Positions 19,742 through 35,492 of a DNA stretch of 64,000 nt are shown in pieces. The DNA comes from Thermotomaculum hydrothermale. GTDB lineage: Bacteria > Acidobacteriota > Holophagae > Thermotomaculales > Thermotomaculaceae. The position numbers were made by a program, and so were the translations under genes. The notes under the pieces were generated by a model that saw only the letters and a program-made list of their open reading frames with translations, did no database searches and was not told where the DNA came from. The stretch is from the NCBI RefSeq assembly GCF_016592575.1, contig NZ_AP017470.1:124001-188000 (forward strand), given 5' to 3'. Positions within the stretch are counted from its first letter, which is position 1, and each line of letters begins with the position of its first letter.

Positions 19742-20050
19742 CTATTTTGCCTCTAATATTTTTTTAATAATTAAATCTTTAGGAGGCATTCCGGAAAATC
19801 TTTCTTCAGTTTGATATACCCTGCACCCATACAGTATGTCCCTGTTTGCCATTCCTTCTTCTAAATCAACCCCGTTGATATGCACAGACGGAGAGCCGTA
19901 AAAATTAAGCCTTTTCGCATCTTCCAGATCCCTTATCTTTATAAACTCAATTTCAGCATCAACCTTTAATTCTTCAACAATCTCTTTAATAAGCTTTAAA
20001 GTATCTCTTGCATGAGGGCATCCGTCAAAGTATAAAATATCAATTTTCAT
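19742..20050 (-). CDS. Thioredoxin-fold protein with CPH motif
   Basis: A 102-residue cytoplasmic protein with a thioredoxin-like outline: strand IDILYFDGCPHA with C11 at the start of the first helix, and the cis-Pro segment GSPSVHING at about 52-60. A second cysteine C76 lies in LYGCRVY. Small proteins of this kind occur beside mercury and other metal genes and are often called alkylmercury-lyase-like. Its ATG overlaps the response regulator stop as ATGA, so it is the third gene of the metal-sensing operon. A redox or metal-handling role is inferred from that position. Confidence 0.7.
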   Translation of the reverse strand: MKIDILYFDGCPHARDTLKLIKEIVEELKVDAEIEFIKIRDLEDAKRLNFYGSPSVHINGVDLEEGMANRDILYGCRVYQTEERFSGMPPKDLIIKKILEAK

Positions 20051-21393
20051 AAATTTTCCCCTTTCTCAGGTTTTTTAAGTTCATAATCTGCAATTTTTTT
20101 TCTTAAAGTGTTTGGGGCAATTTCAAGAATCTTTGAAGTCCTTGTAATATTCCAATCAGTATAGTTTAAAACAAATTTGATATAGTTCTTCTCAACCTCT
20201 CTCAATGGCATTACCTTTTCAGGGATTGTAGCAGATACATTTAATTCCTTCCTTATATCACTTTCGTCAATATACTCAGTTTTGCAGTTAATAATTGCTC
20301 TGATAATAATGTTTTCAAGCTGTCTTACATTGCCTGGAAAGTCGTAGCTTTCAAGGAGTTTTAACGCTTTTGAGGTTATCCCTTTTACAGGGTAAAGCCT
20401 TAAATTTTTGTGTTTGTTTAAAAAGTAGTTTACAAGTATTGGTATATCTTCCGTTCTCTCTCTTAAAGGGGGAATTTTTATCTCCGCAACCGATAACCTG
20501 TAATAGAGGTCTTCCCTGAATTTCCCCTCTTCCACCAGTTTTTTCAAATCCTTGTTTGAGGCGGCTACAATCCTTGCTTTAAGAGGTATTTTTTTATGGC
20601 TTCCTATCCTTTCAAACTCTTTTTCCTGCAAAACCCTTAACAGTTTAACCTGAAATTCAAGGGGAATCTCAGAGATTTCATCTAAGAAAACCACCCCGTC
20701 TTCAGCCTGCTCTAATTTACCTATTCTTGTTTTTTCTGCTCCAGTGTAAGAGCCTTTTTCAGCACCAAATAGCTCAGCTTCAATTAAAGTTGAGGGAATT
20801 GCCGACGCGTTAATTGCAATAAAAGGTTTTGATTTGTCCATTGCCCTGTGTATTGCTCTTGCAACCAATTCTTTTCCCGTCCCGCTTTCTCCTATAATTA
20901 AAACAGGCACCCTGTTAACTGATACAAGTCCTATTTGTTTTAATGTCTCTGTAATGCCTCTACTTTTGCCTATTATTCTATAGTCTTCAACCTCTGTTTT
21001 CTTTATGTTTTCAACAACCTCTTTTTTTTCAACGCTTTTCATTTTTGCCTTTTCAATTAAGATAAGTATATCTTCAAGGTTTATCGGTTTTCTTAGATAA
21101 TCAAAAGCATTCAATTTCATTGCTTCAATAACAATATCCATATCCTCTCTGCCTGTTACAAGTACAATTGGTGTTTTTATCTCTCTTTCCTTTGCCCTTC
21201 TTAAAAAGTCGAGTCCGGTAATGTCTGGCAAATGGTAGTCAAGAAAAACTATAGCTGGATTTTCTTCTAAAAGGGCTAAAAAGCCTTCTTCCCCGGTGTT
21301 TTTTGTGGTTGACATAATCCCGTGGGTTTCAAGTTGCAATTGCAGAGACCTGCAAAACATTTTATCATCATCAATTATTAAAATATTATTCAT
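20047..21393 (-). CDS. Sigma-54-dependent response regulator (ZraR/NtrC type)
   Basis: A 448-residue activator with three domains. Residues 1-118 are a receiver (D8-D9 acidic pair, phospho-acceptor D52, lysine in LRKPI). Residues 140-370 are an AAA+ sigma-54 activation domain with Walker A GESGTGKE and the sigma-54 contact loop GSYTGA, a variant of GAFTGA. Residues 400-445 are a Fis-type helix-turn-helix (NITRTSKILEIAPNTLRKK). I chose the ATG at 21393 because GGAGGG lies just upstream and the receiver begins there. It overlaps the kinase by 8 bases. Likely target sites are the 17-bp elements upstream of the efflux and YHS operons. Confidence 0.92.
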   Translation of the reverse strand: MNNILIIDDDKMFCRSLQLQLETHGIMSTTKNTGEEGFLALLEENPAIVFLDYHLPDITGLDFLRRAKEREIKTPIVLVTGREDMDIVIEAMKLNAFDYLRKPINLEDILILIEKAKMKSVEKKEVVENIKKTEVEDYRIIGKSRGITETLKQIGLVSVNRVPVLIIGESGTGKELVARAIHRAMDKSKPFIAINASAIPSTLIEAELFGAEKGSYTGAEKTRIGKLEQAEDGVVFLDEISEIPLEFQVKLLRVLQEKEFERIGSHKKIPLKARIVAASNKDLKKLVEEGKFREDLYYRLSVAEIKIPPLRERTEDIPILVNYFLNKHKNLRLYPVKGITSKALKLLESYDFPGNVRQLENIIIRAIINCKTEYIDESDIRKELNVSATIPEKVMPLREVEKNYIKFVLNYTDWNITRTSKILEIAPNTLRKKIADYELKKPEKGENL

Positions 21394-23128
21394 CTTTTCC
21401 CTCCATAGATGCTTTTTCAAGGATTATGGTGAATTTAGCTCCGCCTTCTTCTCTGTTTTCAGCAAAGATTTCACCATTGTGGTATTCAATTATTTTTTTT
21501 ACTATGGGAAGTCCCAGCCCTGTCCCCGTCTCTTTTGTTGTAAAGAATGGTTTGAAAATCATATCTTTAACAGCCTTTGACAATCCCTTGCCAGTGTCTT
21601 CCACTGAAATAATTACTTTGTCTTTTTTCTCTTTTATGTAAATTGTAACCTTTCCCTTTTTTGGGTTTGCTTCAGCTGCGTTTTTAATTAAATTGGTTAA
21701 TGCCCTTAAAAGGTGCTCCCTGTCTCCGTAGATGTATGCGTTTTCCCCTATCTCAGAAATTACAAAAGTCTTTTGCTCTAATTTTGAAATTTCAGACGAC
21801 ACAATCTCAAGAGCCTGCTCTACAAGGTCAACAGGCTTAATCCTTGATTTTTTTAATTCGATTGGTTTCCCGAAGTTGAGTAATTCTGAAAGCATGGTTT
21901 CAAGCCTTAAAACCTGAGTTTTTGTGATGTTAAGAAGTTCCGAGTAAGTTTTATCGTCTTTTAATTTATCGGCAACCGCTTTAATATTTAATTTAATAGA
22001 AGACAAAGGGTTTCTCATCTCATGGACAATGCTTGAACTTAACTCCCCTATTGCAGCAAGGCTTGATTTTTGAGCTAACTCTTTGCTTTGCTCTGTAAGT
22101 TTATCAATCATTGCATTGAATGCATCTGCTACAGCACTTGCTTCTTTTGTTTCATACCTGCCTATTCTTGCCTTTACATTTCCTTCAAGGATTTCCTTTG
22201 AAACCCTTTCAAGGTCTTTTAACGGTTCAGATAAGCTCTTAGATATCTTAATTGCTACGAAAATAACAATAACAAACACAATAACACCTGTTATTATTGA
22301 CCTTTTAAATAGAATATTTATCCATCTTAATGTTTCGCTTTTATCAACTGTAATGACAACAAAGGAGTTAATCTTTTTTAACACCCTGTACCCTATAAAT
22401 TTCTCTTTGCCAGATAAAGGTTTTTCAAAAATAGCCCCTTCTTTTTCATTTAATATTGCCTTTAAAAGAGGCTTTCCATTTTTTTCTATAAGCCTTTTAT
22501 CGTCACGGTATTCCAATTGCAACCCATCTTTTGAGAGTATAAAAATTCTCCCTGTTTTTCCAAAATTAGGGGTTGTTTTGAGAAGTGTTTCAAAAATCTT
22601 TTTTAAATCAATGTTCGCAGCAATAAAACCTGTTGTCTCATTGGTTTTTTTATTTTTTAAGGTTGAAAATACTGTTAGAGTATTTAATTTATTTTGAATT
22701 AGCAGATATTTTTCTTTTAGAATTTTGTTTATTGTTTTTTCTGGTAATTGTTCGGGAAGGTTACTCCCTGAAATCTCTATAAGTTTTCCTTCAAGAGAGT
22801 ATATCCCAACACCTTTATAACATTTATTGGTTTCGTAAAGGTGAAGCAAAGGGCTACATGAACACCCCATTGTGTGGCACATAGGTGTTGAATTACTTTT
22901 GTTTAAAGACATAATTGAGACAAGGGATAAATCATGTTTTATATCGTTTATTTGTTTGTTAAAATTCTCCTCTTTCCATTCTAAAATGGATTTTAGTTGA
23001 CTGTTTTTTGTCTCTAAAATAGCCTGCGTGCTGCAATGGTGCCCCTGGTATATTAAAACAAGGAGAGGCAGCAGCGTTAATATTAAAAACCAGAATAAGA
23101 TTTGCGTTTCTATACTTTTTTGTTTCAT
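21386..23128 (-). CDS. Membrane sensor histidine kinase with Cys-rich sensor loop
   Basis: Partner of the sigma-54 response regulator. A membrane segment at about 11-28, a periplasmic sensor region 30-275 (PAS/Cache-like), a second segment at 278-294, a HAMP linker 295-347, the dimerisation helix with phospho-acceptor H369 (SSSIVHEMRNP), and an HATPase domain with DTGKGL and TGTGLGLPIV. The sensor contains a cluster of C84, H85, C89, C91 and C103 (MCHTMGCSC) that could bind a soft metal. It resembles ZraS-type kinases in layout. It is the first gene of a three-gene operon, divergent from the efflux genes. Confidence 0.92.
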   Translation of the reverse strand: MKQKSIETQILFWFLILTLLPLLVLIYQGHHCSTQAILETKNSQLKSILEWKEENFNKQINDIKHDLSLVSIMSLNKSNSTPMCHTMGCSCSPLLHLYETNKCYKGVGIYSLEGKLIEISGSNLPEQLPEKTINKILKEKYLLIQNKLNTLTVFSTLKNKKTNETTGFIAANIDLKKIFETLLKTTPNFGKTGRIFILSKDGLQLEYRDDKRLIEKNGKPLLKAILNEKEGAIFEKPLSGKEKFIGYRVLKKINSFVVITVDKSETLRWINILFKRSIITGVIVFVIVIFVAIKISKSLSEPLKDLERVSKEILEGNVKARIGRYETKEASAVADAFNAMIDKLTEQSKELAQKSSLAAIGELSSSIVHEMRNPLSSIKLNIKAVADKLKDDKTYSELLNITKTQVLRLETMLSELLNFGKPIELKKSRIKPVDLVEQALEIVSSEISKLEQKTFVISEIGENAYIYGDREHLLRALTNLIKNAAEANPKKGKVTIYIKEKKDKVIISVEDTGKGLSKAVKDMIFKPFFTTKETGTGLGLPIVKKIIEYHNGEIFAENREEGGAKFTIILEKASMEGKDE

Positions 23129-23162
23129 CTTACAACCCTTTTCCTTCCTATTTGTTTTATAA

Positions 23163-23177
23163 GCAAGTTTAATGCCA
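23163..23177 (-). promoter_or_regulatory. Sigma-54 promoter of the sensor kinase operon
   Basis: On the minus strand TGGCATTAAACTTGCT, with exactly 10 bases between the invariant GG and GC. Transcription would begin near 23152, leaving a 23-base leader before the kinase ATG at 23128. It suggests the two-component pair activates itself. Confidence 0.75.
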
Positions 23178-23239
23178 TATTAAAAATCCCTTAAAACCCG
23201 TATAAATTCTGAATTTTTCTGTTTAATATTCTACAACAC

Positions 23240-23256
23240 TATTCAGAAACTGAATA
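23240..23256. promoter_or_regulatory. Activator site 1 (perfect palindrome)
   Basis: TATTCAGAAACTGAATA, perfect dyad of TATTCA around 5 bases. It lies between the two divergent -24/-12 promoters. One of four copies of the pattern T(A/G)TTCA-N5-TGA in the metal island; probable binding site of the response regulator at 20047-21393. Confidence 0.7.
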
Positions 23257-23273
23257 CCTTTTAAATCCGTTGC

Positions 23274-23290
23274 TATTCAGTTTTTGAGCA
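23274..23290. promoter_or_regulatory. Activator site 2
   Basis: TATTCAGTTTTTGAGCA. Its centre is 34 bp from site 1 and about 61 bp upstream of the -24 box of the efflux promoter, a normal enhancer position for a sigma-54 system. Confidence 0.62.
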
Positions 23291-23342
23291 GTTTTAAGTT
23301 GGCTTCCAAGATAAGTTATTTGTTTTGTTTAAATTATCGGTA

Positions 23343-23358
23343 TGGCAGCCTTTTTGCA
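23343..23358 (+). promoter_or_regulatory. Sigma-54 promoter of the efflux operon
   Basis: TGGCAGCCTTTTTGCA, with exactly 10 bases between GG and GC. Transcription would begin near 23369, 26 bases upstream of the channel gene's ATG. It rules out the in-frame ATG or GTG-type starts further upstream for that gene. Confidence 0.8.
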
Positions 23359-23394
23359 ATATATAAGAGGAACGAATATTTTAGGGAGAAGAAT

Positions 23395-24684
23395 ATGGGC
23401 AAAAGAAAATTTATTTTAATCTGGATATTAATTGCAGGGGTTTCCGTTTTTGGAAATGAGAATGGTTATCTAAAAAATTACATTAACCTTATTAAAAGCA
23501 ATAATCAAAAGTTAAAGGCGTTGAATTTTGAGCACAACTCTATTTTAAAATCTGCAGAATCTGAGAAATACCTGCCTGACCCTGTGTTTACAACAGGAAT
23601 TTACCTTCAGTCTATTGAAACCAGGGTTGGAGCGCAAAAAAGCAAGTTTGGTATTTCCCAGAAAATTCCCTTTAAGGGAAAGTTGAAATTAAAAATGCTT
23701 ACCAAGAAGGAACTGGCAAAGGCTGTGTTGGAGAAAATAAAACAAACCGAACTTGATTTAATTACAAGTTTTAAGAAAAACTACTATACACTTTCCTATT
23801 TAAACGAAAGGGAAAAGATTCTTGAACAACATATTTCACTTCTTAAAGATTTACATTCTGTAATTATGTCTTCTTATGAAGCAGGGAAGGGGAATTACTC
23901 TTCAATATTAAGGATAGAGTCTGAAATAGACTATCTTAAAAACTCCCTTGAAAGCGTAAGAGAGTTAAAATCTCCTGTTATTGCAAAACTTAATGAGCTT
24001 ATGAATAGAAACCCCGAAGAAGAGATAAAGGCAATATCCCTTGATGAGTTTAAGATATTAAAAATAGGCAAAAACGAAGAAGAGAAGATTATAAAAGCCC
24101 TTTTTAGCACAAGCCCTGAGCTTAGAAGTATAAACTTTAAGATGAAGGCTGAAAGGTTAAACAGAGACCTTGCAGGTAAAAGTAGATACTCTGATTTTAC
24201 AATAGGGCTTGACTGGATTAATACTTCAAAGGTAAACGGAAGCAGTATAAAAGACAACGGCAAAGACGGATTGATTTTTAAGATAGGGATGACAATACCG
24301 CTACACAGAAAAAAATACCACTATCAAATTGATGCCTCAAACGACAGGTATTTGAAAGAGGCAAGCGAACATGTAAACACAAAGAACGAAAAAGCCACAG
24401 GGATAAAAAAGGCTTTCTTTGACTATTTAGATGGGATAAGAAAACTTAACCTCTATCAAAATTCAATAATCCCCAGAGCCAAGGAGGCTTTAAATGTTTT
24501 AATAAGCGCTTATGAAAGTGAGGCTGGAAATTACCTTGATGTGATTGACGCTGAAAGGGTGCTTTTGCAGTTTGAATTAGAAGTTTTAAAAAGCAAAAAA
24601 GATATTCTTTCAGCAATTGCTGACATTGAAAGAATTTCAGGAATAAAAGATTTATCAAATTTAAATAATAAGGGAGGAATTTAA
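23395..24684 (+). CDS. Outer-membrane efflux channel, CusC/TolC type
   Basis: Outer-membrane component of a tripartite metal efflux pump. Signal peptide 1-20 (ending SVFGNEN). The remaining 409 residues are helical with two OEP repeats; conserved TolC-type features are LPDPVF near 58 and YESEAGNYLDVIDAERVLLQ near 362. There is no lipobox, so unlike E. coli CusC it is not a lipoprotein. The ATG at 23395 has AGGGAGAAG upstream; the frame is open for 111 more bases but that stretch holds the sigma-54 promoter. The stop overlaps the adaptor gene as TAATG. Confidence 0.88.
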   Translation: MGKRKFILIWILIAGVSVFGNENGYLKNYINLIKSNNQKLKALNFEHNSILKSAESEKYLPDPVFTTGIYLQSIETRVGAQKSKFGISQKIPFKGKLKLKMLTKKELAKAVLEKIKQTELDLITSFKKNYYTLSYLNEREKILEQHISLLKDLHSVIMSSYEAGKGNYSSILRIESEIDYLKNSLESVRELKSPVIAKLNELMNRNPEEEIKAISLDEFKILKIGKNEEEKIIKALFSTSPELRSINFKMKAERLNRDLAGKSRYSDFTIGLDWINTSKVNGSSIKDNGKDGLIFKIGMTIPLHRKKYHYQIDASNDRYLKEASEHVNTKNEKATGIKKAFFDYLDGIRKLNLYQNSIIPRAKEALNVLISAYESEAGNYLDVIDAERVLLQFELEVLKSKKDILSAIADIERISGIKDLSNLNNKGGI

Positions 24685-26522
24685 TGAAAACCTTAAATAA
24701 AAATAAGTTAATTGTTGTTGTGGGAGTGGTTGCTCTTGTTGTCGGGCTTTTAGTGGGTAAAAGTTTTGGCGGTGGAGTGAATGTTGAGGTTAAACAATCG
24801 CACAAAAAAGAGGTTAAAGAAGATATAAAATACTGGACTTGCTCAATGCACCCTCAGATAAAAGCAGACAAAAAAGGTCTATGCCCAATATGTGGGATGG
24901 AACTTATCCCGGTTTACAATTCCTCAGAAACCAAAAACAGCGGAGACTGGGAGTTAACCTTATCAGAAACAGCTATAAAGTTAATGTCTGTTGAAACTGT
25001 AAAAGTAAAAAGAGGAGATGCATACCATACTTTAAGTGTTTTCGGGACAATTTCTGCAAGCGAAGAGAAAGAGTCTGTACTCACCTCATGGTTTGGGGGA
25101 AGGATAGACAAACTTTATTTTGAGGTAACTGGAGAGTTTTTGAGAAAGGGTAGCAAGATTGCAGATATATACAGCCCTGAGATTTACAAGGCTAAGAAGG
25201 AATTGATTGAGGCATTCGCATCTTTGAAAAAATCGGATAAATCACTGAACAAATATACAAGGTTAAGGTTTAAAGCGGCAAAGAAGAAGTTGAAACTATT
25301 AGGCTTGAGAGATTCTCAGATAGATGCAGTTTTGAAGAGAAATGAACCTAAACAGCATGTCTCTGTTTATGCTGAAAAGAGCGGGTATATTTTGAAAAAA
25401 ACTGCAACCGAAGGGATTTATGTAAAAAAAGGAGCCCCTTTGTATAAGCTTGCCACCTTAGATAAATTGTGGGTGTTTTTTGATGTATACGAATCTGATT
25501 TAATCTGGGTGAAAAAGGGTGAAACTGTTGACTTTACAACAGATTCCTATCCCGGCAAGGTATTTAAAGGGAAAATAACCTTTATAGACCCTGTGGTTAA
25601 TCCAAAAACAAGATCAGTAAGGGTCAGGGCAGACATAGACAACTCAGAAGGGTTGCTAAAGCCTGATATGTTTGTTAGAGGCACAGTTTATTCAAGGATA
25701 AGCGCTATAGGATTGGCAGATAGTGGCAGTAGTGAAAAGCCTCTTTTAATCCCCCTTTCAGCACCTTTGATTACAGGTAAAAGAGCAGTTGTTTATGTTG
25801 AAAAGAAAAAGGGAGATTTTGAAGGAAGGGAAGTGATTTTAGGTCCGAAAACAGATAAGGGATATGTTGTGTTAAAGGGGTTAAAAGAGGGAGAAAAGGT
25901 TGTTGTTAAGGGCAACTTCCTGATAGACAGCGAGTTACAGATAAGGGCAAAGCGCTCAATGATGTATCAAGGTGGAGAAGCCCCATCTACACATAACCAC
26001 GGTGGCATGGAAATGGAAAAGAAAGCAAAAAAATCTACTCAATTAAAGGTTAGTAATGAATTTAAAAAATCCGCAGAGTTTTTGGTTGAGGATTACTTAA
26101 AAATCCAGAAGGCTTTAAGCAAAGACAATCTTGAAAGTGCTAAAAAAATTGCCAGAGATGCCCTTAAAAATATTAAAGGTATAAGAATGGAAGCCCTTGA
26201 AGCAAAACCTCATATGAGATGGATGAAGATTCAAAATGCCGTTAAAAGCAATTTAGAAGGTATAGGTAATTCAAAAACCCTGTCAGAAGCAAGGAGTTTT
26301 TTTAAAAACTTAAGTGAAGAAATAGAAAAGGCTTCAAAAGAGTTTAAACTAAACAGCAAAACCGTTTACAAATATTTCTGTCCTATGGCTTTTGACAACA
26401 AGGGGGCATATTGGTTACAGGATAAAGAGGGAACCGAGAATCCTTATTTTGGAAGCAAAATGTTTAAATGTGGTTCAGAGGTTGAAAAACTTAAACCTAT
26501 CCCCGGTGGAGAGTCAAAATGA
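24684..26522 (+). CDS. cusB: RND periplasmic adaptor, CusB type with extra metal domains
   Basis: Periplasmic adaptor that links the RND pump to the outer-membrane channel and delivers metal. An N-terminal membrane anchor is at about 8-28. Residues 49-77 are a heavy-metal-binding domain with C53, C67 and C70 (WTCSMHP; CPICGMEL). Residues 85-425 are the usual hairpin, lipoyl and beta-barrel domains. A Met/His stretch (HNHGGMEMEKK) leads into residues 455-612, a DUF3347-like domain ending in a cysteine-containing unit (YFCPMAF; MFKCGSEV). The extra domains make it 612 residues, about 200 more than E. coli CusB. It is coupled to both neighbours (TAATG, ATGA). Confidence 0.92.
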   Translation: MKTLNKNKLIVVVGVVALVVGLLVGKSFGGGVNVEVKQSHKKEVKEDIKYWTCSMHPQIKADKKGLCPICGMELIPVYNSSETKNSGDWELTLSETAIKLMSVETVKVKRGDAYHTLSVFGTISASEEKESVLTSWFGGRIDKLYFEVTGEFLRKGSKIADIYSPEIYKAKKELIEAFASLKKSDKSLNKYTRLRFKAAKKKLKLLGLRDSQIDAVLKRNEPKQHVSVYAEKSGYILKKTATEGIYVKKGAPLYKLATLDKLWVFFDVYESDLIWVKKGETVDFTTDSYPGKVFKGKITFIDPVVNPKTRSVRVRADIDNSEGLLKPDMFVRGTVYSRISAIGLADSGSSEKPLLIPLSAPLITGKRAVVYVEKKKGDFEGREVILGPKTDKGYVVLKGLKEGEKVVVKGNFLIDSELQIRAKRSMMYQGGEAPSTHNHGGMEMEKKAKKSTQLKVSNEFKKSAEFLVEDYLKIQKALSKDNLESAKKIARDALKNIKGIRMEALEAKPHMRWMKIQNAVKSNLEGIGNSKTLSEARSFFKNLSEEIEKASKEFKLNSKTVYKYFCPMAFDNKGAYWLQDKEGTENPYFGSKMFKCGSEVEKLKPIPGGESK

Positions 26523-29500
26523 AAAACGAAAAAATAGAACCTAAGGGATTTCTGGAAAAGTTAATATACTTTTCTATAAAAAACAAACTGGTAATAGGCA
26601 TATTTATAGCAATTATTCTCTTTGTAGGGGCAATGGTTTCACCTTTTGACTTTGATATTGCAGGAATTCAAAGAGACCCTGTTCCTGTTGATGCAATTCC
26701 CGATGTAGGGGAAAACCAGCAGATTGTTTTTACAAAATGGCCGGGAAGGTCTCCCCAGGATATTGAAGACCAGATTACATATCCATTGACAGTTGCGTTG
26801 CTTGGGATTCCAGAAGTCAAAACAATTAGAAGTTTTTCAATGTTTGGCTTCTCAACCATTTATGTAATTTTCAAAGAAAAAGCTGATTTCTACTGGTCAA
26901 GGTCAAGGATACTTGAAAAACTCAACAGTTTACCGCCAAATACCTTGCCTGAAGGGGTAAAGCCTTCTTTAGGGCCTGACGCTACAGCTTTGGGACAGGT
27001 TTTCTGGTATACACTTGAAGGGAGAGATAACAAAGGCAACCCAACAGGGGGCTGGGATTTGCAGGAGTTAAGGTCTATTCAGGACTGGTATGTAAGGTAT
27101 GCTCTTTTATCTGCTGACGGGGTAAGTGAAGTTGCGTCTGTTGGGGGATATGTTAAAGAATACCAGATAGATGTTGACCCTGATGCTTTAAAGGCTTACG
27201 GAATAACTCTTGAGCAGGTTTTTAAAGCCGCCAAAATGTCAAACCTTGATGTAGGGGCAAAGTCTATAGAGATAAACAATGTTGAGTATGTTATAAGGGG
27301 AATAGGTTTTATTAAAAAAATAAAGGATATTGAGGATACAGTTATAACAGTCAGAAATAACACCCCTATTTACATAAAAAATGTTGCAAATGTAACAATA
27401 GGGCCGGCAATGAGAAGAGGAATTCTTGATAAAGAAGGGGCAGAGGTTGTAGGTGGAGTTGTTGTTGCAAGGTTTGGGGAAAATCCTTTAAAGGTAATCA
27501 AGAATATAAAGGAAAAGATAAAAGAGATTTCCCCTGGTCTTCCTTCAAAAAAGCTGAAAGACGGAACAGTTAGCAAGGTTACAGTTGTACCCTTTTACGA
27601 TAGGAGCGGTTTGATTTATGAAACCCTGGGCACCTTAAAATCGGCACTAACAGAAGAAATATTTGTAACAATAATTGTAGTCCTTTTGATGGTAATGCAC
27701 TTTAGAAGTTCATTGCTTATTTCAGGGTTGTTGCCCCTTGCAGTTATTATGACTTTTATAGCAATGAAGGTATTTAAGGTTGACGCAAACATTGTTTCTC
27801 TGTCTGGAATAGCAATAGCCATAGGCACCCTTGTGGATATGGGAATTGTAATTGTGGAGAATATTATCAAGCATTTAAGCGACCCTGACAATAATTTAAG
27901 TTTTTTCAATAAAGTGTTTGTTGCAACCAAAGAGGTTGGGGGAGCGGTTTTAACTGCCGTTTCTACCACAGTGATAGGTTTTCTACCTGTGTTTGCAATG
28001 GAAGGGCCTGAGGGGAAATTGTTTAAACCCCTTGCATTTACAAAAACTTTTGCCTTAATTTCAGCGATAATTATTGCTTTGACAATTATTCCTCCAGTTG
28101 CTCACCTTATTTTAAAAGCAAAAGTTAAAAGAAAATCTTTTCAGAAAGTCATTAACGCATCCTGGATTGTATTGGGGATAATATCTTTCTTTTTATTTTC
28201 AAAATTTGCAGGTATTGCCCTTGTCTTCCTTGGTATCTACCACCTGACAAAGGATAAAATAGCACCAAAATACACTAAATACGGGCTATATGTTATAAAC
28301 GGGATAGCGGCTATAATTGTAGCAACCTTTTTGGCTGAACACTGGTTGCCTTTAGGGGCATACAAAGGGTTTACCCTTAACTTTCTCTTTGTGGTTTTGA
28401 TTATTGGCTCAATATTATTGTTTTTCCAGATTTTCCAGTTTTTTTATCCCTCAATTTTAAGATGGGCTTTAAACAACAGGAAGTTGTTTTTGCTTATACC
28501 GGTATTTATAATCCTTTTCGGTGCTTTGTCATGGTTAGGTTTTGAGAAAATATTTGGCTGGTTGCCGGTTTCTGTAAAAAGGCTTGCCCCTGTTTCATAC
28601 TTTGCACATAAATTTCCCGGGTTAGGTAAAGAATTTATGCCTCCTTTAGACGAAGGCTCTTACCTCTATATGCCGACAACATCAACCCATGCATCAATAG
28701 GGGTTGTTAAAGAGGTTTTAAAAATTCAGGACAGCAATTTTAAAAAAATACCTGAAATTGAAACAGCGGTTGGAAAATTAGGAAGGGCAGAGACTCCTTT
28801 AGACCCTGCACCTATCTCAATGATTGAGACTGTAATAAATTACAAACCTGAATATATTACTGACAAAAACGGCAACAGGCTTTTATTTAAGTTTAATCCA
28901 GATGAAGTTGATTATTACAGAGACGAAAACGGAAATCCTGTGTTAGCCCCGGACGGCAAGCCATATAGGGTTCAGGGTAGATTTGAAAGGGATAAATACG
29001 GAAAACTTATTCCTGATAAAGACGGTTCTCCCTTCAAACTCTGGAGGCCTGAATTAGACCCTGAATTAAACCCGGGAAGGGAATATTGGAAGGGTATAAC
29101 TTCCCCGGACAACATATGGAAAGAGATTGTGGAAGCAGGGACAATTCCCGGGCTTACTTCCGCACCTAAACTTCAGCCTATTGCCGCCAGAATTGTTATG
29201 TTGCAAAGCGGAATGAGAGCCCCCATGGGATTGAAAATCAAGGGGCCTGATTTGAAAACAATTGAGAAAGTAGGCCTTGAAATTGAGAAGTTTTTGAAAG
29301 AGGTGCCCTATATTGACCCAAATACCGTTGTTGCAGACAGAATGATAGGAAAGCCTTACCTTGAAATTAACATTGACAGGCAGGCTATTGCAAGGTATGG
29401 AATCCCTCTGGTAAAGGTTCAAAATGCCATAGAAACCGCAATAGGCGGGAAAACAGTAACAACTACAATTGAGGGTAGGGAAAGGTACAATGTCAGAGTG

Positions 29501-30403
29501 CAGTATTTCAGGGAATTGAGAAATGATATTGACAAAATAGGCAATGTTTTAATCTCTTCACCTACAGGTGCTCAGATCCCCCTTAAACAGCTTTCAAAAA
29601 TCAACTATGTTAAAGGCCCTCAGGTTATTAAGAGTGAAGACACATTTTTAACAGGCTATGTTATTTTTGATAAAAGGGGGGATTATGCAGAGGTTGATGT
29701 TGTTGAGCAGGCTAAAAGGTATCTTAAAGAAAAAATAAAAACAGGTGAATTGGTAATCCCTGCTGGGGTAAGTTACAGTTTTGCAGGAAACTATCAAAAT
29801 CAGATAAGGGCTGCTAAAAAGCTGGCTATAGTTTTACCACTTGCACTTTTTACCATATTTTTAATTCTCTACTTTCAGTTTAAAAGGGTATCAACAACTT
29901 TACTGGTTTTCTCTGGAATTTTAGTGGCATGGGCAGGGGGATTTATACTTATCTGGTTTTATGGCCAGCCATGGTTTATGGACTTTAACTTTTTAGGGGT
30001 TAATTTAAGGGATTTGTTTCAAATGCACCACATAAACTTAAGTGTTGCAATATGGGTGGGTTTCTTAGCCTTATTTGGTATTGCATCAGACGACGGAGTT
30101 ATTATAGCCACTTACTTAGACCAGATTTTTGAGGTGAGAAAGCCTGAGACAGTTGAGGAGATAAGAAAGGCTACAATTGAGGCGGGGAAGAAAAGGGTTA
30201 GGCCTGCTTTAATGACTGTTGCAACAACGGTTATAGCATTAATTCCTGTGTTAACCTCAAAGGGAAGAGGCTCTGATATTATGATTCCCATGTCAATTCC
30301 CACATTTGGAGGGATGATTGTAGTTGTAATAACTATTTTTGTAGTGCCTGTTTTATACAGTTTAATAAAAGAGATTTCGTTGAAAAGAAGTGGTAAAATA
30401 TAG
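26519..30403 (+). CDS. cusA: Heavy-metal RND efflux pump, CusA type
   Basis: Inner-membrane proton-driven pump for monovalent copper or silver in the CusCBA complex. The N-terminus and the TM4 proton-relay motif (GIAIAIGTLVDMGIVIVEN) match the HME-RND family. At 1294 residues it is about 250 longer than E. coli CusA. Two insertions explain this: about residues 540-650, after the sixth membrane segment, with extra hydrophobic segments, and a hydrophilic DKNGN/DENGNP-repeat loop at about 780-870 in the second periplasmic domain. The Met-containing segment MLQSGMRAPMG is near the expected metal-binding cleft. It overlaps the adaptor by ATGA. Confidence 0.93.
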   Translation: MKNEKIEPKGFLEKLIYFSIKNKLVIGIFIAIILFVGAMVSPFDFDIAGIQRDPVPVDAIPDVGENQQIVFTKWPGRSPQDIEDQITYPLTVALLGIPEVKTIRSFSMFGFSTIYVIFKEKADFYWSRSRILEKLNSLPPNTLPEGVKPSLGPDATALGQVFWYTLEGRDNKGNPTGGWDLQELRSIQDWYVRYALLSADGVSEVASVGGYVKEYQIDVDPDALKAYGITLEQVFKAAKMSNLDVGAKSIEINNVEYVIRGIGFIKKIKDIEDTVITVRNNTPIYIKNVANVTIGPAMRRGILDKEGAEVVGGVVVARFGENPLKVIKNIKEKIKEISPGLPSKKLKDGTVSKVTVVPFYDRSGLIYETLGTLKSALTEEIFVTIIVVLLMVMHFRSSLLISGLLPLAVIMTFIAMKVFKVDANIVSLSGIAIAIGTLVDMGIVIVENIIKHLSDPDNNLSFFNKVFVATKEVGGAVLTAVSTTVIGFLPVFAMEGPEGKLFKPLAFTKTFALISAIIIALTIIPPVAHLILKAKVKRKSFQKVINASWIVLGIISFFLFSKFAGIALVFLGIYHLTKDKIAPKYTKYGLYVINGIAAIIVATFLAEHWLPLGAYKGFTLNFLFVVLIIGSILLFFQIFQFFYPSILRWALNNRKLFLLIPVFIILFGALSWLGFEKIFGWLPVSVKRLAPVSYFAHKFPGLGKEFMPPLDEGSYLYMPTTSTHASIGVVKEVLKIQDSNFKKIPEIETAVGKLGRAETPLDPAPISMIETVINYKPEYITDKNGNRLLFKFNPDEVDYYRDENGNPVLAPDGKPYRVQGRFERDKYGKLIPDKDGSPFKLWRPELDPELNPGREYWKGITSPDNIWKEIVEAGTIPGLTSAPKLQPIAARIVMLQSGMRAPMGLKIKGPDLKTIEKVGLEIEKFLKEVPYIDPNTVVADRMIGKPYLEINIDRQAIARYGIPLVKVQNAIETAIGGKTVTTTIEGRERYNVRVQYFRELRNDIDKIGNVLISSPTGAQIPLKQLSKINYVKGPQVIKSEDTFLTGYVIFDKRGDYAEVDVVEQAKRYLKEKIKTGELVIPAGVSYSFAGNYQNQIRAAKKLAIVLPLALFTIFLILYFQFKRVSTTLLVFSGILVAWAGGFILIWFYGQPWFMDFNFLGVNLRDLFQMHHINLSVAIWVGFLALFGIASDDGVIIATYLDQIFEVRKPETVEEIRKATIEAGKKRVRPALMTVATTVIALIPVLTSKGRGSDIMIPMSIPTFGGMIVVVITIFVVPVLYSLIKEISLKRSGKI

Positions 30404-30454: not shown

Positions 30455-32929
30455 ATGAATACCTACCATAATGAAAAAAAAGGTTTTATTGACCCTGTTT
30501 GCAAAATGGAAGTTAATGAAAATTCACAATTTAGCACAGAGTTTAACGGGAAAATTTATTATTTTTGCAGTAATCATTGCTATGAAAAGTTTATTAAATC
30601 TCCTGAAGATTTTGTTAAAGAGAAAAAGGATATTCATCATCACAGCGGACATGAGCATAAACACCACCATGTTGAAAATGGGCATCAAATTGACAACCAT
30701 TCTCATCACACACACGGTAAAGAGGACGACCATGCATGTTGCGATACTGGATTAGATGAGGTTCAAAAAGAAGCGGAAAAGAATATTTCCAGAGTGTTTG
30801 AGGGAAAATCCATAATTTACACCTGTCCTATGCACCCTGAGGTTGAAAGCGACAAGCCAGGGAATTGCCCTAAGTGTGGAATGGCTTTGGAGAAAAAGGA
30901 AATTACCCTTGATGATGATGAAAGAAATCCTGAGTACGAGGATATGCTAAAAAGGTTTAAAGTAAGCGTTGTACTTGTTATCCCTTTGCTTATTCTGGCA
31001 ATGGGCGACATGCTCCCCGGAGCGCCTATGTCAAAGTTGTTTTCGCCTAAGTTAAAGGTTATGCTTGAATTTGTTTTTGCAACCCCCATAGCAGTATGGG
31101 CTGCCTGGCCTTTCTATGAGAAGGCAGTTTTATCTTTAAAGGGGTTTAATCTTAATATGTTCACCCTTATAGGTTTGGGAGTTGCCATAGCATATATTTA
31201 CAGTGTGGTTGCTGCATTTCTCCCGGGTATATTTCCCCCTGAGTTTTTAAGCGAAACTGGAGAGGCTCAGGTTTATTTTGAAGCGGCAGGGGTAATTGTA
31301 ACCTTGATTTTGCTTGGTCAGGTGCTTGAATTGAAGGCAAGGACTCAGACTGGGGCGGCAATAAAGAAACTTTTGGGGCTTGCTCCTAAATCTGCAAGGC
31401 TTATAAGAGAGAACGGAGACGAAATTGATATCTCTATTGAGAAAATAAAGGTGGGGGATTTGCTCAGGGTAAGGCCTGGAGAAAAAATCCCTGTTGACGG
31501 AGAAGTGGTTGAAGGTGAAAGTTTTGTTGATGAATCAATGATTACAGGTAAGCCGCTTCCGGTTAAAAAGAAGAAGGGAGACAAGGTCATAGGCGCAACT
31601 GTTAATAAAAAAGGAAGCCTTGTTGTTAGAGCTGAAAGGGTAGGCTCGGATACAATGCTTGCAAGAATTGTAAAAATGGTCAACGAAGCCCAAAGGAGCA
31701 AAGCGCCTATTCAAAAACTTGCAGATACTGTTTCTGGTTACTTTGTGCCTATAGTTATTCTTGTTGCGGTTATCACCTTTATTGTTTGGTTTAAATTCGG
31801 TCCTGAGCCTAAATTTAGTTATGCAATTATAAATGCAATTGCTGTTTTAATTATTGCCTGCCCCTGTGCGTTAGGGCTTGCAACTCCAATGTCAATAATG
31901 GTGGCCACAGGGAAGGGTGCTACTCACGGCATACTTTTTAGAAATGCGGAAGCTATTGAAAAGTTTGAAAAGGTTAATATCTTAATTGTTGACAAAACAG
32001 GCACATTAACTGAGGGAGAACCTAAGGTTACAATTGTAAAGCCAGCAGAAGGGTTTACAGAAAATGAGGTTTTATTCTACGCTGCAACTTTGGAAAAAAG
32101 TAGTGAACATCCGTTAGGAGCAGCAGTTGTTAACAAGGCTCTTGAGTTAGGATTGTCTCTAAAATCTCCTGAGAAGTTTCAGTCTATAACCGGAAAGGGA
32201 ATTGCAGGCAAAGTTGACGGTAGAGAGGTCTATGTTGGAAACAGAAAAATTGCTGAAGAGTTTAACATTGATATTTCAGGGATAAAAAATGAGGCAGAAA
32301 AACTTCAGCAAGAAGCCTATACCGTAATTATGGTAATTGTTGATTCAAGACCAGCGGGAATTATAGGAATTATTGACCCTATTAAAGAGACATCTCTTGA
32401 CGCTATTAAAACCCTGCACAAATTAGGTATTAAGGTTGTAATGGCTACGGGAGACAATAAGAAAACCGCTGAGGCTGTTGCAAACAAGTTAGGTATAGAC
32501 AGTGTTTTTGCAGAAGTGTTGCCTGAAGACAAGGTGAATCTTGTTAAAAAGTTTAGAGAAGAAGGCGATATTGTGGCAATGGCTGGTGACGGAATAAACG
32601 ATGCCCCTGCTTTAACCCTTGCAGATGTAGGAATTGCTATGGGAACAGGAACCGATATTGCAATTGAAAGTGCCGAAGTGACCCTTGTTAAGGGCAATTT
32701 GCAGGGTATTGTAAAGGCTTATCAATTAAGTAAAGCTACAATGAGAAACATCAAACAAAACCTTTTCTTTGCTTTTATATACAACTCTGTTGGTGTGCCG
32801 GTTGCAGCGGGGGTGCTTTATCCTTTTTTCGGCATACTATTAAGCCCAATAATAGCAGCTGCTGCTATGAGTTTTAGTTCAGTATCTGTAATTGGCAATT
32901 CATTAAGGTTACGAAATATAAAATTATAA
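30455..32929 (+). CDS. copA: Copper/silver P1B-type ATPase with YHS and His-rich N-terminus
   Basis: Inner-membrane Cu+/Ag+-exporting ATPase. The N-terminus is composite: a YHS-type domain (residues 12-53, C16 and C38-x3-C42), a His-rich linker (60-95, over a dozen His), and a heavy-metal-binding domain (122-148, C124, C138, C141). No classic HMA domain with CxxC between strands is present. The core has C469-P-C471 in the membrane, the phosphorylation motif D513-KTGTLT, SEHPLG and [10 protein letters not shown]. 824 residues. AAGGAGAAAGGT precedes the ATG. It lies 51 bases after cusA with no promoter between. Confidence 0.95.
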
Positions 32930-33212: not shown

Positions 33213-33686
33213 TCACTGCGTTATCTCTTTTAAAAATTCTTTGCTTTTTATTGCTACATTTTTCATTATTTTCCCGGGAATACCGGAAAAAATCTTTGAC
33301 ATTAAAGAGATATTGATTTTTGACACATACACATTGCCATTTTTGTCTTCGTAAATAGTCCATGAGCAGGGGATAAGCCCGGATAGTTCAGGATTATTGC
33401 TTACAAGCATATTGGCATTTTTAGGATTACACACAAAATAGATTTTACAGTTTTTAATAGATTCAAAGTTAAGATTTTTATTTTTTTGAAATTGATAAAA
33501 ATCCCAAGTATCTATGGGTAATCCCCAGCCTTCCGCTTTGTTTATTGTGTTTTCCAGCCTTTTGCAGGTTTCTTCAAACCCGTATTTGCTTTTTACGGTT
33601 GTAATTGCATTCTTTCTGGTGAAAACAATAAAAAACACACTTACAAGAAAAATGGTAATTAAAGCGGTTAATATAATAGTTAACAT
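33213..33686 (-). CDS. DUF302-domain membrane-anchored protein
   Basis: A 157-residue protein: N-terminal membrane segment (about 1-22), then a DUF302 domain (residues 31-130) with the typical order VKSKYGFEETCKRLENTINK, YFVCNPKNANMLV, PCSWTIYEDKNGNVYVSKIN. DUF302 proteins are common near metal and sulfur genes; their role is not established. AAAGGAGGTAAC sits directly before the ATG at 33686, which decides the start over an in-frame ATG 15 bases upstream. A terminator separates it from the operon upstream on the same strand. Confidence 0.85.
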   Translation of the reverse strand: MLTIILTALITIFLVSVFFIVFTRKNAITTVKSKYGFEETCKRLENTINKAEGWGLPIDTWDFYQFQKNKNLNFESIKNCKIYFVCNPKNANMLVSNNPELSGLIPCSWTIYEDKNGNVYVSKINISLMSKIFSGIPGKIMKNVAIKSKEFLKEITQ

Positions 33687-33756
33687 GTTACCTCCTTTCA
33701 TAGGTTTTAGAAGTGCTATTAAATAGTTTCAATCTTTGCTTCACTAAAAGTTTTGC

Positions 33757-33828: not shown

Positions 33829-34752
33829 TTAATTCATTCCTCCCATTCCGCCTCCCATTCCGCTGCCGTCCATATTACCCATTGCATCGGGAATTGGAAC
33901 TAAAGGAATGGCTGTCTGGATCCCATTGCTGTTTATTAAAACAAGGGGGACAATGCCGTCATCTTCTGCCCTGATTTCAATAACTCCTTTGAAATTATTG
34001 ATACCTTGATACTCGCTTAAGAAATTTGCAAGTATATCAACTGTTTGCTGGCCTGCCAACAGAGTTATGTCTTTTCTGAAAACTTCTACACCGTTAACAT
34101 CTTTTAAGATTAAAGTTGCGTTCATATCTGTGTCTGAGGTGTTTACCATTGCAAGCCCTGTAATATTGTTTTCATCGTTTACAATGGGAGCGGCAAAGCC
34201 TCTCATCATTCCTGCCATAAACCTCATTCCGTTTGTTCCTACCTGAGTGGCGAGAACGCCGTTGCTGTCAAATCTCTTGTACTTTACTCCTAAAAATACA
34301 TGGTCGCTCATCATTCCATGATTACCGCTATTATCGCCCATGCCGTCACCCATATCGGTGGTCTGGTCATTTTCATCAACAATATAGGTTGCCCAGCCGA
34401 TAACTTTTTCGTTTTCCGGGTTTCCAAGTGTTACTTCTACCATTCCGCCTGCTGGTACTGTTATTTCAAAGTTGTCTCCAAACTGCCCATTTACATCAAG
34501 GGCAAGCCTGCTTCCATCCTGGTTGTAAAAATATAAAGTTCCAGTTGCATCCTCGCTTATCCCAGGGTTAAAAACAGTTATGACAGTCTGATATCTCCCA
34601 CCTATATGGATATGTGGGATTACCAGGTTATTCTCCATCTCCATACCTTCGTGATTCTGGTGAGTTCCTGTGTTTCCGTCCATATCATTGTGTGCAGAGG
34701 CCAACCCCACACTTAAAATCATTGCCGCAAGTAGTATAAAAAGTTTTCTCAT
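33829..34752 (-). CDS. Secreted Met/His/Gly-rich-ended protein of the metal regulon
   Basis: I do not recognise a family. A signal peptide (residues 1-20, ending LASA) is followed by a His/Met-rich segment (HNDMDGNTGTHQNHEGMEME). Residues 45-285 are beta-rich and contain two similar halves, each with a FN/VNTSD start, a glycine turn and a TVPAGGMVEV or TLLAGQQTVD strand. The protein ends in a Met/Gly run (GSGMGGGMGGMN). The Met/His ends and the sigma-54-controlled operon with the YHS protein suggest periplasmic copper or silver binding. The beta domain resembles repeat units in the large secreted protein at 38885-43771. Confidence 0.7.
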   Translation of the reverse strand: MRKLFILLAAMILSVGLASAHNDMDGNTGTHQNHEGMEMENNLVIPHIHIGGRYQTVITVFNPGISEDATGTLYFYNQDGSRLALDVNGQFGDNFEITVPAGGMVEVTLGNPENEKVIGWATYIVDENDQTTDMGDGMGDNSGNHGMMSDHVFLGVKYKRFDSNGVLATQVGTNGMRFMAGMMRGFAAPIVNDENNITGLAMVNTSDTDMNATLILKDVNGVEVFRKDITLLAGQQTVDILANFLSEYQGINNFKGVIEIRAEDDGIVPLVLINSNGIQTAIPLVPIPDAMGNMDGSGMGGGMGGMN

Positions 34753-34762
34753 AATTTCTCCT

Positions 34763-35350
34763 TTATCTCTTTACTTTGTTAGAATTAGCGTTCTGGTTAT
34801 TCTGGTTTGTTGACATCCATTTGTCCATCATTGATTTACAATAATTGCACATCTCACCATTTTTCATCATTTCAGCAGTGCAGGTGCATTTGGACATATC
34901 AAAGTTGTGCATTTTCATCATTTTTTTGTGCATTTCCATCATTGTTTTTTTGTCCCAATTTTTCATATAATTCCTGCAGTGGTCCATCATATACATTTGT
35001 TTATTGTTTTTCACCTTACTATTCTGATTGTTGGCACTGGTGTGCATCCAGCAACCATTCATCATATAAGTTTCATTCTTCTGTGCATTTGCCGGTGTCT
35101 TTTCAAGTTCAATCCCTTCTTCTTCCATCTGTTTAATATACTTGTCCGGGTTTTTCATAAATTCAGCAGGGCAACCTTCGCATCCGAAATAAATCCTTTT
35201 ACCCTTGTAATCCACATATAGGTTTTTGTTAATGTCCATTTTGCAGATTGGACACTTTGTTTGAGGTTTTAATTTCTTATCGCTTTTTGCGAATGAGGTA
35301 ATACCGAATATAAGCCCTAAAACAACTGTTAAGATTAATAATTTTTTCAT
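34763..35350 (-). CDS. Periplasmic YHS protein with Met/Cys/His-rich tail
   Basis: A 195-residue exported protein. Signal peptide 1-21 (ending TSFAKS). Residues 31-72 form a YHS/TRASH-like domain with C33-x2-C36 and C57-x2-C60. Residues 96-179 hold 20 Met, 6 Cys and 4 His (for example NGCWMH, MMDHC, MMKMH, CTC), an extreme soft-metal-binding composition. The tail is Asn-rich. It is the first gene of a sigma-54-controlled operon and is likely a periplasmic copper or silver sponge, functionally like ZraP or CusF but with no visible similarity to either. GGAGG precedes the ATG. Confidence 0.78.
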   Translation of the reverse strand: MKKLLILTVVLGLIFGITSFAKSDKKLKPQTKCPICKMDINKNLYVDYKGKRIYFGCEGCPAEFMKNPDKYIKQMEEEGIELEKTPANAQKNETYMMNGCWMHTSANNQNSKVKNNKQMYMMDHCRNYMKNWDKKTMMEMHKKMMKMHNFDMSKCTCTAEMMKNGEMCNYCKSMMDKWMSTNQNNQNANSNKVKR

Positions 35351-35385: not shown

Positions 35386-35401
35386 TGCAACTCCTGTGCC
35401 A
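35386..35401 (-). promoter_or_regulatory. Sigma-54 promoter of the YHS operon
   Basis: On the minus strand TGGCACAGGAGTTGCA, the best consensus match in the window, with 10 bases between GG and GC. Transcription would begin near 35375, 25 bases before the ATG. Confidence 0.85.
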
Positions 35402-35454: not shown

Positions 35455-35471
35455 TATTCAAAAATTGATTT
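35455..35471. promoter_or_regulatory. Activator site 3
   Basis: TATTCAAAAATTGATTT, matching the TTCA-N5-TGA core of the sites at 23240 and 23274. It is 62 bp upstream (centre) of the -24 box of the YHS promoter. Confidence 0.58.
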
Positions 35472-35475
35472 AAGG

Positions 35476-35492
35476 TGTTCAATTTTTGAGTA
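35476..35492. promoter_or_regulatory. Activator site 4
   Basis: TGTTCAATTTTTGAGTA. Its centre is 21 bp, two helical turns, from site 3. Confidence 0.6.

Follow-up and report, generated by a model that had tools for sequence, protein, structure and literature searches.

Evidence for a probable sigma-54 control region, with divergent promoters and a common enhancer, between a sensor pair and a copper/silver-type efflux operon in Thermotomaculum hydrothermale

The window analysed here, a stretch of 64,000 nucleotides from Thermotomaculum hydrothermale, carries a heavy-metal efflux operon and, in the opposite orientation, a two-component system. On the plus strand, the gene of a cusC-like outer membrane efflux protein (23395..24684, with the ATG at 23395 as its likely start) is followed by those of a cusB-like adaptor with HMBD and DUF3347 (24684..26522), a cusA-like heavy-metal RND pump (26519..30403) and a copA-like P1B ATPase with YHS, HMBD, CPC, YN and MSFSS motifs (30455..32929). 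CusA scores 767 bits against TIGR00914 (CusA/CzcA family; cut-off 701), and its three conserved methionines align with the Met triad of E. coli CusA. CopA scores 613 against TIGR01511 (copper ATPase; cut-off 397) and has the P1B-1 motifs CPC, YN and MxxSS, the last in the form MSFSS. Because the Met triad of CusA and the Cu+ ATPase motifs of CopA are kept, copper or silver is the likely load of CusCBA-CopA.

The minus strand encodes a histidine kinase (21386..23128) composed of a TM segment, a periplasmic dCache domain, HAMP, HisKA and HATPase. Four of its cysteines, C32, C84, C89 and C91, are invariant among four orthologues, in the pattern CxxxxCxC plus an HC after TM1. The periplasmic domain has a dCache fold according to a moderately confident predicted model (pLDDT 71 on average) with PDB matches to dCache domains, and residues 75-102, which hold three of the cysteines, are modelled without confidence. 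This Cys-cluster dCache kinase is a candidate copper/silver sensor. Among 297 genomes of the phylum, the kinase family with invariant periplasmic cysteines is confined to this bacterial family, and a search of wider genome contigs gave distant kinase-domain matches and no close relatives. The kinase gene is followed by that of an NtrC-family response regulator (20047..21396, minus) with a REC domain, a sigma-54 AAA domain and HTH_8, an architecture (REC-AAA-HTH8) that places it outside the OmpR type. Its sigma-54 activation domain, which the sequence-only reading had recognised, matches PF00158 with E=4e-65; the sigma-54 contact loop is GSYTGA where GAFTGA would be typical, a conservative change, and the sister-genus orthologues have GAFTGA. 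Almost the full length of the protein can be aligned with the NtrC-family structure 4l4u. The third gene of the sensor operon encodes a small, Cys-containing thioredoxin-like protein of the DF-family (seleno)proteins (19742..20050, minus; NF049942 over cut-off). A single copy of rpoN is found in the genome (E=1.5e-67).

Between the kinase gene and cusC lie two divergent −24/−12 sites, both with exactly 10 bases from GG to GC, as had been noted from the sequence: TGGCATTAAACTTGCT on the minus strand (23177..23162), ahead of the kinase-regulator operon, and TGGCAGCCTTTTTGCA on the plus strand (23343..23358), ahead of cusCBA-copA. The start noted for the minus-strand site was off by one. Transcription is predicted to start at about 23150-23152 and about 23368-23370, respectively, and the distance from site to ATG codon is 49 bp for the kinase and 52 bp for cusC. 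A simple scan of the intergenic region for sigma-70-like sites found none. Both of two putative enhancer palindromes (CTATTCA-N5-TGA; neither assigned to a strand) lie between the divergent promoters: palindrome A, TATTCAGAAACTGAATA (23240..23256), has its centre 95 bp from the cusC promoter and 71 bp from the kinase promoter, and palindrome B, TATTCAGTTTTTGAGCA (23274..23290), has its centre 61 and 105 bp from them. Palindromes A and B would serve as an enhancer common to both divergent promoters.

A third −24/−12 site, TGGCACAGGAGTTGCA (35386..35401, minus), precedes another operon by 51 bp; the distance from promoter to ATG is 49-55 bp in all seven cases measured. The first gene of this operon encodes a Met/Cys/His-rich YHS-domain protein (34763..35350, minus), and the second a secreted-looking protein with Met/His-rich ends (33829..34752, minus), which has no match in Pfam or NCBIfam. 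A homologue of the latter adjoins a P-type ATPase in genome G005, and secreted-looking proteins with Met/His-rich ends adjoin copper ATPases in both genera considered below. A small protein of no known family (33213..33701, minus), possibly the product of the last gene, follows in an order that is conserved in the same-genus relative G001. Upstream of the YHS promoter there are again two putative enhancer palindromes, likewise unstranded, TATTCAAAAATTGATTT (35455..35471) at 62 bp and TGTTCAATTTTTGAGTA (35476..35492) at 83 bp. Paired palindromes around TCA-N5-TGA are thus found upstream of all three promoters of the window, and such paired, activator-like sites stand 60-110 bp upstream of the −24/−12 sites.

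The −24/−12 motif by itself is weakly enriched. TGGCAN6TTGC occurs three times in the window against 0.6 expected per 64 kb, TGGCAYN5TTGCW with at most one mismatch gives eight matches against 5.0 expected, and of three matches listed to exact TGGCAN6TTGCA on the plus strand of the genome, one (G000 453400) is inside an open reading frame. The bare motif count was rejected as proof of sigma-54 promoters for this weak enrichment, and the kinase and cusC sites taken alone are modest evidence. The composite TCAN5TGA-N45-75-TGGCAN6TTGC is much more discriminating: 0.01 occurrences are expected in the window, which has three, and 0.36 in the whole genome of 2.3 Mb, which has four. The promoters of the kinase, cusC and YHS operons account for three of these four. 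At the fourth (G000:C1:276365-276447), TGGCACGCTTTTTGCT is found just past an htpG-like gene and ahead of the gene of a secreted-looking protein; it was rejected as a metal-gene promoter, because its palindrome is inside the htpG-like gene, which is no metal gene; it may be a further sigma-54 promoter that has a palindrome beside it by chance. Tandem palindromes stand at 13 distinct sites genome-wide, of which two, both in the window, adjoin a −24/−12 site matching in at least 9 of 10 positions. These two are also the only ones outside a gene, the open frame that overlaps one of the window pairs being a TTG-started upstream extension of cusC. A genome list of palindromes with two mismatches allowed was dropped for too many AT-rich matches. 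Since the sites and palindromes were already in view when the composite patterns were drawn up, the recurrence of these patterns in other genomes is the weightiest, independent support.

Relatives were compared with the window genome (G000) in the form of one genome of the same genus (G001) and three of a sister genus (G006, G007 and G008), all from fragmentary assemblies, that of G001 being broken and 89%-complete. Promoter and enhancer pairs are conserved at nine promoters in five genomes of the two genera, upstream of cusC, copA and YHS operons. Ahead of cusC, the three sister-genus genomes have TGGCAC/T...TCTTGCC, and the centre of CAGAAACTG is 95 bp from the cusC promoter in G000, 96 in G006, 95 in G007 and 97 in G008; a second, related copy of CAGAAACTG stands 74-76 bp from the promoter in G006, G007 and G008. 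The copA operon promoters of G007 and G008, which are preceded by a multicopper oxidase gene, have CAGAAACTG sites in inverted form, 103/80 bp away in G007 and 106/83 bp away in G008. In G001, the YHS operon has an enhancer pair 61/82 bp from its promoter TGGCACGCTTCTGGCA, and CusA is 93% identical to that of the window; CusB was not found in this assembly, where the contig ends at cusA. When the nine regions are aligned, TGGCA shows no variation and the TTGC element hardly any; the stretch between enhancer and promoter varies. The pattern CAGAAACTG-N73-100-TGGCAN6TTGC has matches in eight of 396 phylum genomes, including all four found to bear the kinase, the matches in G070, G283, G030 and G326 being stray single hits, two of which (G283 and G030) overlap long open frames. 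The kinase itself was found in four of 297 phylum genomes, each of which has the element upstream of copper genes. The proposal made from the sequence, that divergent sigma-54 promoters serve the sensor pair and the efflux operon, is thus well supported by comparative evidence (one rpoN, an NtrC-type regulator, paired enhancers and nine conserved promoters), while the enhancers and the third operon had been missed.

The sister genus has its kinase-regulator pair away from cus, and a search upstream of the kinase for a sigma-54 site revealed no good one; linkage and autoregulation therefore appear to be particular to the genus of T. hydrothermale. A further genome, G002, yielded no CusA operon of this type and has an enhancer pair between two convergent genes, one of them trpB-like (G002:C99:7707-7739). 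This pair, which is not accompanied by a YHS operon, has TTGATTTAAGGTGTTCA in common with the YHS enhancer of the window and is possibly a relic.

Taken together, these sequence features suggest that the intergenic region is very probably a sigma-54 control region, with divergent promoters and a common enhancer, which the dCache kinase and the NtrC-type regulator work in response to copper or silver. The GSYTGA loop of the regulator, in place of GAFTGA, counts against this reading. The system might instead be sigma-54 dependent and answer, in a ZraSR-like manner, to another signal such as zinc, arsenic, or envelope or thiol stress, with the copper genes as part of the response. The thioredoxin-like third gene of the sensor operon would agree with this, the Cys cluster of the kinase could be redox-sensing, and the dCache matches are mostly to domains that bind small organic ligands; each of the nine promoters, however, stands ahead of genes of copper type or of genes for their sensor, CusA has the Met triad and CopA the P1B-1 motifs, and a multicopper oxidase adjoins the element in G007 and G008, so that a signal other than copper or silver appears unlikely. 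It is somewhat less probable still that the elements are true sigma-54 elements bound by a different NtrC-type activator, the neighbouring pair being coincidental or partly involved. With at least nine further NtrC-type matches in the genome, binding by some other activator is conceivable; the pair and cus are not linked in the sister genus, and in G001 (again, a broken, 89%-complete assembly) the regulator was not found, though the enhancer is present. On the other hand, the pair adjoins the sites in this genome, every genome found to have the kinase has the element upstream of copper genes too, and the enhancer lies ahead of the pair's own promoter, as autoregulation predicts. Chance −24/−12 matches, with sigma-70-type promoters under a copper repressor or an activator of MerR or OmpR type, might be suspected from the weak enrichment of the motif, its exact occurrence in coding sequence elsewhere and the control of cus by CusR in E. 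coli. Even with the RpoD-dependent cus and sil of Cupriavidus metallidurans as a further parallel (PMC9045368), chance is very improbable in view of the nine conserved promoter-enhancer pairs in five genomes, the lack of a sigma-70-like match in the scanned region and the lack of CsoR-family proteins in the five genomes that were searched for this family alone.

Under the preferred reading, control by the adjoining kinase and regulator, excess periplasmic Cu(I) or Ag(I) would be sensed by the dCache kinase, probably via its invariant cysteine cluster, and the kinase would phosphorylate the NtrC-type regulator. The phosphorylated regulator would bind palindromes A and B and, through DNA looping and ATP hydrolysis, cause RNA polymerase-sigma-54 to open at both −24/−12 sites. 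The enhancer-promoter pair would thus probably switch on pump and sensor together, the rise of the sensor operon amounting to positive autoregulation and that of cusCBA-copA to export, and the regulator would act likewise from the second enhancer pair to raise the YHS/Met-rich operon. The analysis shows directly the sequences, spacing and conservation of promoters and enhancers, the presence of rpoN, the domain make-up of the regulator and the copper-type motifs of the pumps; from these we infer that the regulator binds the palindromes, that RpoN is required and that the signal is copper or silver. A broader proposal can be made tentatively: the dCache Cys-cluster kinase and the NtrC-type activator may be the main copper switch of the family, in which one enhancer pair would fire two divergent sigma-54 promoters and replace the control of CusR, CueR or CsoR type that is familiar from model bacteria.

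A sigma-54 promoter stays silent unless its activator is present, and the copper defence would therefore be tightly off and strongly inducible. The enhancer motif is explicit (TCAGAAACTGA type, paired, 60-105 bp upstream), which lets the regulon be located in relatives, and the cysteine-loop dCache domain is suggested as a new candidate for copper/silver sensing.

The nearest well-known layout is that of E. coli ZraSR-zraP, where sigma-54 activates the sensor pair and a periplasmic protein divergently through an NtrC-type regulator in response to zinc, lead and envelope stress. The divergent layout and the type of regulator are shared with the window, but ZraSR has no efflux operon, and the window regulator scores 320 bits where the ZraR equivalog requires 760, and the kinase 169 where ZraS requires 479. 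E. coli CusRS-cusCFBA likewise combines a divergent two-component pair with a Cu/Ag RND pump operon; CusR, however, is an OmpR-type regulator that works with sigma-70, whereas the regulator here is of the NtrC type and the sensor is a dCache protein. The cus and sil operons of C. metallidurans are also copper-type RND operons, RpoD-dependent, and its cus has no two-component genes (PMC9045368). No description of a sigma-54-controlled CusCBA operon was found in the literature, most subscription journals lying outside the search. The sequence-only reading had regarded a sigma-54 route to copper efflux, beyond ZraSR, as unusual. This was too strong, because in Myxococcus xanthus the NtrC-type two-component system CorSR controls the copper-induced curA operon, which includes the P1B ATPase gene copA and has four predicted sigma-54 promoters, as tested by deletion of corSR (PMC3707914). 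CorSR, compared with the window pair by gene content alone, is the nearest known system in logic. Both have a kinase and an NtrC-type sigma-54 regulator in a copper cluster, several genes with predicted sigma-54 promoters, a P1B copper ATPase with a YHS domain and their own genes under control. They differ in that the operon under CorSR, a single one of nine genes, includes a multicopper oxidase and lacks an RND pump, a divergent common enhancer is not described there, and the ECF sigma factor CorE also acts at copA. Sigma-54-type control of copper genes is thus already known from one other bacterium, and the present system is a sound variation whose principle is not new. What is new is the combination of an RND pump, a divergent common enhancer and a dCache/Cys sensor, by which the principle of CorSR would be extended to RND pumps and to another lineage.
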